Positions 56,924 to 64,000 of a stretch of DNA of 64,000 nucleotides are shown piece after piece; within the stretch, counting starts at the first letter, position 1; the number at the start of each line of letters is the position of its first letter. This stretch comes from Ochromonas danica (lineage: Eukaryota > Sar > Chrysophyceae > Chromulinales > Chromulinaceae), in the NCBI GenBank assembly GCA_015146655.1, contig VKHL01000021.1, forward strand, positions 1 through 64,000. Direction: 5' to 3'. The translations under genes were made by a program, and so were the position numbers. A model generated the notes under the pieces. That model was not told where the DNA came from. It saw only the letters and a list, made by a program, of their open reading frames with translations, and did not search any database.

Positions 56924-57231
56924 GACTACCTGTGTTTCGTTCTTCTTCTTGTTGTTGTGATGCTTCGCAGCTTCCCACTACAACAAACACGTGTCCACCT
57001 CTCTCAGACAGACCGTTTCTACCAATAAACGACTGTTTCACCCTGCGTCTTTCTCTTTTTCTCTTCTTCTCTCATCACATCAAGAACTGAAAAGGAAAGA
57101 GAAGCACTGAAGTAAAAGATACGCTCCTCTCTCTCTCTCTTAGTCCCCCCACACTATCTCTCTCTCTCTTTCTTTCTCTCAGTCAGTCAATCAGTGGTTG
57201 GTTGTGGTAGTAGTAGTCATAATCAAATACA
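56924..57231. promoter_or_regulatory. Divergent promoter region, periplastid ubiquitin / selenoprotein K
   Basis: 308 bp between the two start codons; holds CT-rich runs (CTCTCTCTCTCT near 57125-57140 and 57160-57180) and TCAGTCAGTCAATCAGT just before the SelK start. No exon seen. Confidence 0.4.
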
Positions 57232-57519
57232 ATGCCATATGTTCGATCAGATGGTACAGTCGTCCAGGAACGATCCATCTGGAGACTTTCTATCATCTCT
57301 GATCTATTCTGGAGTATTGCCAATGGTGTGGCTTTATTCTTTCAAACCTTAATTGATCCTACTGCTCCTATTCCAAGAAACCGTGTTACCCAAGGCAGTA
57401 GCGGCGGTCGGTCTTCCGGTCACTCAGGATCAGGTGGTGGTGGGTCATCACAAGGTGCCACTAGAAGAGCTAATATACGAACTCTACCCAAGCAATGCAA
57501 TACAGGTACCTGAGGTTAA
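57232..57519 (+). CDS. SELENOK: Selenoprotein K, selenocysteine encoded by TGA at 57511-57513
   Basis: 95 residues if TGA at 57511 is read as selenocysteine and TAA at 57517 is the stop. The N-terminal part matches SelK closely: MPYVRSDGTVVQERSIWRLS is followed by IISDLFWSIANGVALFFQTL, the single membrane span, with WRLS.I.DFFW.I as in animal SelK. A Gly/Ser/Arg-rich tail follows. The last residues read NTGT-Sec-Gly, compared with GG-Sec-GR at the end of human SelK, so the TGA sits exactly where Sec belongs. SelK is an ER membrane protein linked to ERAD (binds p97 and derlins) and to palmitoylation. A SECIS-like fold lies 140 bp downstream. If TGA were a plain stop, the product would be only two residues shorter. 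Confidence 0.8.
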
Positions 57520-57609
57520 GCGGAGATTCTCCTCCTTCTGGATCATCATTAGTAGAGGAGGGATTCTCTTATTTCCCTTTCTCTTTATTGATGAAGAGAA
57601 TCTCCGCTT
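57518..57609. repeat. 14-bp perfect hairpin arms right after the SelK stop
   Basis: AAGCGGAGATTCTC (57518-57531) and its exact inverse GAGAATCTCCGCTT (57596-57609), 64 bp apart. The arms begin inside the TAA stop codon. It would form a stable hairpin in the SelK mRNA, but the SECIS core does not sit at the right place in it. Confidence 0.85.
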
Positions 57610-57656
57610 CCATCTCTTAACTTGTCTGTGGCAGCTGTTGATTACCATTAGTCATG

Positions 57657-57704
57657 TGGTCGGGATGACAGGGTGATTGACTTTAATTACCCTTGATATG
57701 ACCA
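57657..57704 (+). promoter_or_regulatory. Candidate SECIS element of the SelK mRNA
   Basis: A fold by hand: helix I TGGTC (57657-57661) with GACCA (57700-57704); a small internal loop; core ATGA (57665-57668) opposite TGAT (57694-57697), giving the non-Watson-Crick quartet. Helix II is AGGGTGATT (57670-57678) with AATTACCCT (57685-57693), nine pairs including one G.T; the loop is GACTTT. Core, order and location after the stop fit eukaryotic SECIS. The unpaired AA usual in the apical loop is not clearly present and helix II is short, so it is a candidate only. Confidence 0.5.
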
Positions 57705-57924
57705 GATTATGATTAGTGTTCAAATCAGCTGTTGACTATCTTTTTACAACTTCTCTCGTATACTAGCTCCCATAAAAAATAAAAGAATTAACTCGTCTCC
57801 CTTTATGAACTGCTTCCACCCTTTTCATCATCTTCGCCTAACTGAAAGGTGAATGCCATTACTTTCAGAACATGTGTTATTTACTTTATGCACTTTATTA
57901 TGTGTGCATCACTTTGGAACTAAG

Positions 57925-58586
57925 TAACTTACTCAAGAAAAGCTCCTTGAAACGGACGTTTTGAGTGAATTTCACATGAAAGAAGACCTTGATTCTCATG
58001 CAACATCGCGAAGAGGCATATTTTGCCGTGAAGGTTCATGCAATCCATCGATTCGTGGTCTCGGCTAATCTTAGTCCATGAATCGATAGATTGCATGCAC
58101 CTTCAACCAGTATCGAGCATGGTTCAGATCGTTATTATTGCATGGATGAAGGCAAAAAAGGTAAGAACGCGAAGATATAAAGATAATGACAAATAACATG
58201 TATCCTGGCTAAAATGTGATTTGATGTATGTGACTGAACTGTGCTGCCGTGGCAGAAGAATAGAACTCATCGCCGCTGTAGTCGTCAGCGACAACAACGT
58301 TGCCCACCACAATCTCCGCGCCTCTTTTAAGTTGAAGCGACGATTCGTCTGCTCCAATAAGACCTCTTGCGTCTTACGTTTTTTCTCCTCAGCGATGCAC
58401 AACCTTTTTCTCCGCTTTCGTAGCTTTGGTCGCTCATCCCTGTAACAATAATGATTTGAGCCACGTTCAATACTGGTCATTTTAGCCATGAAGGTGAACC
58501 TTCAGCAACAAAAATGACTAGAATCAAGGTCATTTCTTTTCATGCGAAAACGTCCCTTGAAACGTCCCTTGCTTCCTTAAGTTAAT
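57925..58586. mobile_element. About 660-bp MITE-like element with imperfect long TIRs
   Basis: The left end (TAACTTACTCAAG... then CCTTGAAACGGACGTTTT, CATGAAAGAAGACCTTGATT) and the right end read inverted (ATTAACTTAAGGAAGCAAGG..., GGACGTTTTCGCATGAAAAG, GACCTTGATTCT) share their order of blocks over about 80 bp. Inside is a second palindrome with 30-bp arms, 58029-58058 and 58076-58105, three mismatches. A minus-strand open stretch at 58489-58124 has a Lys/Arg-rich start but no recognised domain. No transposase. Boundaries are approximate. Confidence 0.6.
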
Positions 58587-62800: not shown

Positions 62801-64000
62801 CTACATCGCCAATGGAACATTCGAAGGAAGTAGTAAAGGCGAATCAAACGAGAGATTAGTGGCATGATAAAGAGCTGCTCCCAACGGCCAGCCCACGCTG
62901 AAATGATGATGTTCATCAGTCGGAACGAAGGTCGTCGCATCATGCTCACCAACTTGATATACATCTTTTGCAAATGCATACATAAAGGCAGCACCAAAAC
63001 ATGCTTGTTGAGCTCGATAAGCAGGAAAGCTTGGAAATCGAGCAAGTACTTCTGGCCAGGGTTGCTTGCAGATAGTCTCTCCTGCCTGACGAATAACTGC
63101 TGGGGCTACGCCTTGATCTCCACGAAGTCCAAGAACTTCCAAAGTCTTTGGGAAATTGTCGACACCAATTATAGTTTTCGGTCGTAGCATCTTCATACAG
63201 CTACTCTCAGACTGAGCCTTACGCGTAATAGCGCCCCTGATTAACCGGACACATTCGCTAAAGTTTCCAGTTCCAATCCAAAGAGGATTACTAGAGTCTG
63301 GTACTTCGAATGGATAACGTGCACCAGGAGATACACATGGATGATCTCGAATAACATAGGGGGCAAGAGTAGTTTTCTGCTGTGATGCACGCAATGCTAA
63401 TTCATAGTAGCCATAGGAAGGATAGATTTGAGCACTTCCAGAGCAAGCAGAAGAAGGCGATTCAGACGGACACAAACCAAGAAGCAATTGCCTCCTTTCA
63501 CCCCATGGTAGGTCTTCTTCCATAGATTCTTGCTGTTGTTCAATGACAAACTGCTCGGCTAGTCTATCGGTTATCTCGGCCATGGCAGCAACAATACCCA
63601 TTCCTGGGATAGAACGAGCAAAGACTTCAATATACTTTGCAGATCCTGGTAGAAGCAAGCGATAATCTGGCCTGCAATCTTGTGGATAACTCGCCAAAAA
63701 CCAAAGATTCCACAAGCTTGTCCACGATAACTGAGTCAAACTGGTTAATGACAAAATACGGGATGGGAGAACAAAGGCGATTTGTGTGCTAGAACCACCT
63801 AGATCTGCTGCAGCTAACTGCAATTCAAAATCATCACTCACGTTGGAAAAGGCCATATTTGTTGCCAATAATGCAAAGAGCGCTTCTTCATTTCCGCTGA
63901 TGACTCTCGTCTCCACAGGATTGAACGAGAAATTAGTTTGCGACAAAATTTCTCGCACATTTGTGATAATCCAATCCTGCTCATCAATATCCATTACTCG
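62801..64000 (-). CDS. Apyrase / nucleoside triphosphate diphosphohydrolase (GDA1/CD39), 5' end beyond the window
   Basis: The minus-strand frame is open from the right edge to the stop at 62801 (about 399 residues present). Apyrase-conserved regions are visible: ISGNEEALFALLATNMAF (ACR3 region) and LAAADLGGSSTQIAFVLP (ACR4). Later come PCVSPGARYPFEV and the C-terminal FSVGWPLGAALYH (ACR5-like). The first two conserved regions, which hold the phosphate-binding DAGS, lie outside. Many Cys residues (e.g. SSACSGS, ESSCMK, GETICKQPW) suggest a disulfide-bonded lumenal or secreted domain. It hydrolyses NTP and NDP, in the Golgi to recycle UDP/GDP or outside the cell. No membrane anchor at the C terminus. 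Confidence 0.82.
   Translation of the reverse strand, partial: RVMDIDEQDWIITNVREILSQTNFSFNPVETRVISGNEEALFALLATNMAFSNVSDDFELQLAAADLGGSSTQIAFVLPSRILSLTSLTQLSWTSLWNLWFLASYPQDCRPDYRLLLPGSAKYIEVFARSIPGMGIVAAMAEITDRLAEQFVIEQQQESMEEDLPWGERRQLLLGLCPSESPSSACSGSAQIYPSYGYYELALRASQQKTTLAPYVIRDHPCVSPGARYPFEVPDSSNPLWIGTGNFSECVRLIRGAITRKAQSESSCMKMLRPKTIIGVDNFPKTLEVLGLRGDQGVAPAVIRQAGETICKQPWPEVLARFPSFPAYRAQQACFGAAFMYAFAKDVYQVGEHDATTFVPTDEHHHFSVGWPLGAALYHATNLSFDSPLLLPSNVPLAM

Follow-up and report, generated by a model that had tools for sequence, protein, structure and literature searches.

The in-frame UGA at position 57511 of the window, a stretch of 64,000 nucleotides (64 kb) of DNA, lies in a selenoprotein K (SelK) gene of an ochrophyte-type eukaryote and is very probably read as selenocysteine (Sec). 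Sec insertion directed by a SECIS-type hairpin downstream is the best-supported reading of the gene, and from this element, the decoding machinery and two sister genes we infer it with high confidence; the mechanism is a known one, and the organism is new. In addition, each of the three Sec UGAs found in the assembly is followed by an unusually stable, SRE-like hairpin of ~80-100 nt, and a stimulatory role for these UGA-proximal hairpins appears reasonably probable.

The SelK coding sequence (57232..57519, plus strand), delimited by the open reading frame, a Pfam match and a codon check, consists of 93 codons, the UGA as the proposed Sec residue 94, one Gly codon and a TAA. The open reading frame itself runs from 57232 to 57510 (93 aa), or to 57513 when the TGA is included, and the sequence then reads TGA (57511-57513), GGT (57514-57516) and TAA (57517-57519), which bears out the original prediction that a TGA sits two codons before TAA at the place where SelK carries Sec. 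Against the Pfam family SelK_SelG (PF10961) the frame scores 73.4 bits over a cut-off of 23.3 (E 2.3e-20). The same prediction had described a match to SelK along the whole length; the family assignment stands, and the wording on length is slightly too strong, since the match covers residues 2-77 of 93 and the C-terminal Sec region lies beyond the aligned part. By eye, the tail is Gly-rich and a hydrophobic stretch is visible, and the protein is presumably located in the ER. SelK proteins span the ER membrane by a single helix, and those of other organisms carry Sec near the C-terminus. The putative Sec codon of the present gene, at codon 94, is likewise close to the C-terminus, with a single codon between it and the stop. 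By simple arithmetic, chance alone should place a single sense codon and then a stop after about 3/64 of TGA stops (~1 in 20), and the position of the TGA taken alone is therefore weak evidence. A PDB search with the protein returned no SelK; the matches lay in the Gly/Ser-rich part and were mostly antibody linkers. No SelK relative was confirmed in a scan of viral contigs. Beside the gene, on the minus strand, a ubiquitin domain (PF00240, 56492-56923) has a signal-peptide-like N-terminus, and its product looks, by eye, like one targeted to a complex-plastid compartment.

The SECIS-type hairpin occupies 57646..57718 on the plus strand and is defined by folding, pair probabilities and descriptor rank. 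Its core halves, ATGA (57665-57668) and TGAT (57694-57697), are preceded by a 5' GGGA and enclose helix II, with 10 bp between 57670-57679 and 57684-57693 (pair probabilities 0.81-1.0) under a small apical loop. Outside the core, the inner helix I pairs 57657-57661 with 57700-57704 (0.97-1.0) and an outer helix of 11 bp pairs 57646-57656 with 57708-57718 (0.81-1.0). The fold of 57625-57740 has a z of -5.4. As in eukaryotic SECIS elements, helices I and II thus flank an ATGA/NGAN core, and the element lies downstream of the TAA. Three core positions pair in Watson-Crick style with probabilities near 0.6, because the standard energy model has no non-canonical pairs. Transcription is presumed to run through the element. 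The hairpin and its ATGA/TGAT core had been predicted 140 bp downstream of the TGA; both are present, and the corrected distance from the TGA to the start of the core is 151 nt. The apical loops of eukaryotic SECIS elements typically, and not universally, hold an unpaired AA (or CC). Neither SelK (loop region GACTTT) nor the SelT element described below (loop ATG) has such an AA or CC, and the apical loop of the third element, in a deiodinase-like (DIO) gene, ATTACCACA, contains CC.

A SECIS search, which the original prediction had proposed as a check, came out in favour of the element: with a generic descriptor (ATGA, 18-45 nt, NGAN, with both helices scored) it ranked 1/331 among the SECIS-like candidates on both strands of the 64-kb window. 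The Rfam model SECIS_1 (RF00031) matched nothing in either the window or the whole assembly, nor did it match 57200-58000 when E-values were relaxed; the three loose Rfam matches obtained there (mir-198, mir-1684 and snoZ247) were far below their gathering scores. The descriptor was also applied to ~220 kb, namely the window together with 52 nuclear loci, with some overlap between loci and with SelT counted twice (L012 and L044). This set, which did not include L001-L007 or the organelle loci, gave 1052 candidates, among which the DIO, SelK and SelT elements ranked 2, 3 and 6. The top-scoring site (L054) was taken, by eye, for probable coding sequence.

The machinery for Sec decoding was searched for in the assembly of 31.2 Mb, and tRNA-Sec, EFSec, SepSecS and selenophosphate synthetase were all found. 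The tRNA-Sec scores 64.2 against a gathering score of 47 and has, in our own reading, the anticodon loop UUUCAAA; ARAGORN did not call it. EFSec has one match in the assembly and contains PF21208 and PF21131, and its protein reaches 176 bits with the NCBIfam model selB, below the cut-off of 242. SepSecS is represented by one full-length match (E 3.3e-166) and a second fragment of 51.8 bits, below the cut-off, and the selenophosphate synthetase SelD by one match, a Cys form. A PSTK-like stretch of 129 aa in a single exon-like frame scores 37-40 bits with TIGR03575 against a cut-off of 382, and 68 bits with the model of the related KTI12 (PF08433) over a cut-off of 22. The presence of tRNA-Sec and EFSec had been named in advance as a check on the SelK reading, and the assembly holds both of them together with SepSecS and SelD. 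The broader claim that the organism decodes UGA as Sec is accordingly supported by the machinery, by the SECIS and by two further genes in which a UGA is accompanied by a SECIS.

The first of these is SelT, whose TGA lies in the CxxU motif (CTSU) and whose score with TIGR02174 is 62.9 bits against 34.2. Its SECIS lies 79 nt past the stop codon, and two more TGAs in its frame are upstream of the assumed start. The SelK and SelT elements have in common GGRATGAC, exactly 24 nt, and TGA, and the assembly was searched with this pattern at a spacer of 22-26 nt, which gave 223 matches as compared with 68 for the reversed pattern. One hundred of the 223 were listed, 8 repeats or near-duplicates were removed by hand, and the remaining 92 were folded and ranked by terminal pairs first and then by energy. 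Among these folded matches of those listed, the energies were -10.6 for SelK, -7.5 for C5:241754, -7.0 for SelT and -6.4 for DIO, and the DIO site was picked because its fold closes at both ends. On contig C10 this site follows a frame with a single in-frame TGA in the motif SLTUPPF, at the expected Sec position of a deiodinase (PF00837, 3.9e-15), with the stop codon 60 nt before the SECIS core. When all 76 assembly matches with 24-25 nt were folded and ordered by helix II energy, SelK, SelT and DIO came first, second and third. Because SelK and SelT had supplied the pattern, only DIO counts as an independent success. MAFFT misplaced the 25-nt DIO element relative to the 24-nt SelK and SelT elements. 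The DIO-like selenoprotein (L066, minus strand, 1962-487) also has ~320 residues before the deiodinase match to which no Pfam family was assigned.

Of four new candidates taken from the pattern, one, the C10 site, led to a selenoprotein gene. At C158:63468 (L067) the RNA folds like a SECIS, but the 553 nt available ahead of it show no recognisable UGA gene, and by eye a transposon-like frame lies there; C9:40454 (L068) has no fold around the core; and C33:201497 (L069) forms a hairpin with the 3' core half paired. Neither of the last two has a recognised UGA gene upstream. The L067 hairpin, on the minus strand of C158 with its core near contig position 63500, is 4th of 76 by helix II energy.

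Other selenoprotein families occur in the assembly as Cys forms. All four GPx genes are Cys forms, and a fifth match, below the cut-off, begins past the catalytic position. The two SelU copies and a SelW-like gene (L011, CPGC) are also Cys forms, and a TGA in a second SelW-like match (L013) was taken for an intron or frame artefact. Thus GPx, SelU, the SelW-like gene and SelD have Cys here, although they often have Sec in algae. The SelU-like frames L023 and L025, ~57 kb apart on C55, share a long identical stretch that includes the Cys motif RRPGCVLCRED, and represent a recent duplication or an assembly repeat.

These Cys forms fit a reading in which the SelK homologue has lost Sec as well, with the TGA as an ordinary stop, a protein ending in ...KQCNTGT, Cys-89 as the thiol and the SECIS as a leftover. 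It would also agree with a TGA, one codon and a TAA being not rare by chance, and with a Pfam match that stops short of the C-terminus. In a decaying relic, pairs should be missing; here, however, the two helices of the SECIS remain complete, and helix II is more stable than that of any other of the 76 matches. Algal SELENOK, moreover, is described as almost exclusively the Sec form (PMC7539508). Loss of Sec is thus highly improbable, and the reading of UGA 57511 as Sec is preferred.

The original prediction was silent on a second and larger hairpin directly at the SelK UGA, at 57512..57616 on the plus strand, which is SRE-like and is supported by fold energy, pair probabilities and window rank. 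Its main stem pairs 57518-57531 with 57596-57609 and includes part of the TAA stop; the segment 57505-57620 folds at -49.7 kcal/mol (z -5.8). Only one 100-nt plus-strand window of the 64 kb exceeds it in stability relative to GC. A whole-assembly search, in which a miss does not prove rarity, found no second copy. For its GC, no hairpin in the window is more stable than the one at 58021-58120, which lies ~300 nt downstream of the SECIS; its arms (58029-58061 and 58073-58105), separated by 11 nt, form a 33-nt inverted repeat with 88% complementarity.

In folds of 100 nt from the U of the UGA, the z values are -5.3 for SelK, -3.5 for SelT and -4.2 for DIO, and 0, 4 and 1 of 683 coding windows, respectively, are as low; this coding background is less fitting for SelK, because the SelK stretch is mostly 3' UTR. 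Synonymous recoding reached the native energy in 6/2000 trials for SelT and 0/2000 for DIO. Eight Cys codons in Cys homologues, folded as controls, gave z values from -0.04 to +1.38. Two of these are in SelD and two in the near-identical SelU copies, the fourth GPx (L018) was left out, and one GPx control window (L020) runs past the apparent exon end. Four fold windows were tried per gene, two of them of 60 nt, and the signal was absent from the 60-nt folds after the UGA in SelK, SelT and DIO. A stable hairpin downstream of the Sec UGA beyond chance, as expected of an SRE, is therefore seen with 100-nt folds and not with 60-nt folds. Ranked by stability within each gene, the UGA window is 1/30 in SelK, 6/57 in SelT and 2/150 in DIO. 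The top window of DIO lies ten nt further on than the UGA window; in SelT, more structure than in the UGA window is seen immediately upstream of the UGA.

The last observation is among those that would fit a reading in which Sec is inserted and the UGA hairpins are unrelated to it, the SelK hairpin acting in 3' end formation or mRNA stability, and chance accounting for those of SelT and DIO. The hairpin at 58021-58120 has no known UGA gene beside it, and stable hairpins therefore also arise here for other reasons. In addition, the comparison rests on n=3 genes without relatives, and coding windows are not a matched background for a SelK hairpin that is mostly 3' UTR. Against this, all three Sec UGAs found carry a hairpin that few coding windows equal, recoding seldom (SelT) or never (DIO) restores the native energy, and the eight Cys codons have nothing comparable. 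Unrelated hairpins are accordingly a serious possibility, held at somewhat below even chances. A different use of the hairpin, in which a near-cognate tRNA reads the UGA with its help and without Sec, would be in line with the description of SREs that alone allow some Sec-independent readthrough (PMC4561486). The SECIS and most genes of the Sec pathway are present, however, and the UGAs of SelT and DIO are at known Sec positions, which makes such readthrough exceedingly improbable. The preferred reading is therefore Sec insertion through the SECIS, probably aided by the hairpin at the UGA.

Two plastid gene sets, with gene names assigned by eye, are present in the assembly: one on C202 (L026-L029), with ferredoxin, sufB, sufC and ribosomal and polymerase genes, and another on C303 and C193 (L033 and L035), with rbcL and petA. 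Of the 45 kb of C202, 40 kb were read, and by eye no photosynthesis gene was recognised in them; one plastid looks non-photosynthetic. Reduced plastids that keep petF and suf genes are described for Spumella-like chrysophytes (PMC7511666). Two mitochondrial gene sets, on C237 (L030-L032) and on C214 (L034), were likewise distinguished by eye. Because of these two plastid and two mitochondrial sets, the assembly may mix two ochrophytes, possibly from a mixed culture or a grazer with its prey. EFSec and SelD have single matches, SepSecS has one full-length match and the three SECIS elements are alike, and one Sec-decoding nucleus is therefore favoured.

In the proposed mechanism, the ribosome would reach UGA 57511, and the 3' UTR SECIS would recruit EFSec with Sec-tRNA, presumably via a putative SBP2-like protein. 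Sec would be inserted, one Gly added and translation terminated at the TAA at 57517. By analogy with the SREs of animal SELENON and SELENOS, the UGA-proximal hairpin probably raises Sec insertion by slowing the ribosome or making release less favourable. A wider and rather doubtful proposal is that two signals are used across the lineage, with a short SECIS that has no apical AA and a long UGA hairpin, in the place of the bacterial SECIS, acting in every gene. Under such a scheme, Sec would have been kept in few families, and every Sec UGA still in use would have a hairpin of its own beside it for support. A standard-code gene caller would end SelK at its probable redox residue. As the standard code ends the protein early and the Rfam model misses the SECIS, counts of selenoproteins in related protists may be too low. 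Should the UGA hairpins be functional, this genome would offer a simple setting in which to study the division of labour between local hairpin and distant SECIS, and also the proposed descent of SREs from bacterial SECIS elements (PMC4561486).

Compared with the SELENOK family (PF10961), the present SelK has a score over the cut-off, a penultimate UGA and a Gly-rich tail, and its protein shows nothing beyond normal divergence. SELENOK, SELENOT and DIO are described as known selenoprotein families in algae (PMC7539508). In the diatom Thalassiosira pseudonana, the set reported in a 2007 survey (PMC2375036) does not include SelK and comprises two Sec GPx genes, a Sec SelU and a Sec SPS2; in contrast, GPx, SelU and SPS2 have Cys in the present assembly. 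The SelK element resembles the eukaryotic SECIS (RF00031) in its place 3' of the stop, its ATGA/TGAT halves and its helices I and II, but its apical loop has no AA, unlike that of the typical eukaryotic element. The spacing between the core halves, 24 nt in SelK, 24 in SelT and 25 in DIO, is shorter than in the RF00031 type, and none of the three was reported by RF00031; the three elements have a common short form that the Rfam model misses.

The first described SRE is that of SELENON, and further candidates are reported, among others, for SELENOT (PMC8704476) and SPS2 (PMC4561486). Stem-loop 1 of SELENOS is described as lying 9 nt downstream of the UGA, where the 3' UTR begins, and as promoting Sec insertion in its native place (PMC3628699), and the SelK hairpin is placed much like it. 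No report of SREs in algae or Chrysophyceae was found among the open-licence papers searched. As in the SELENON SRE and SELENOS stem-loop 1, a stem-loop is predicted a few nt past the Sec UGA here; the present hairpins, known from predicted folds in one assembly, are ~80-100 nt long and occur at all three Sec UGAs found. The bacterial SECIS is likewise a hairpin immediately past the Sec UGA. Unlike the bacterial system, however, the present one also has a eukaryotic SECIS in the 3' UTR and an EFSec of the eukaryotic type.
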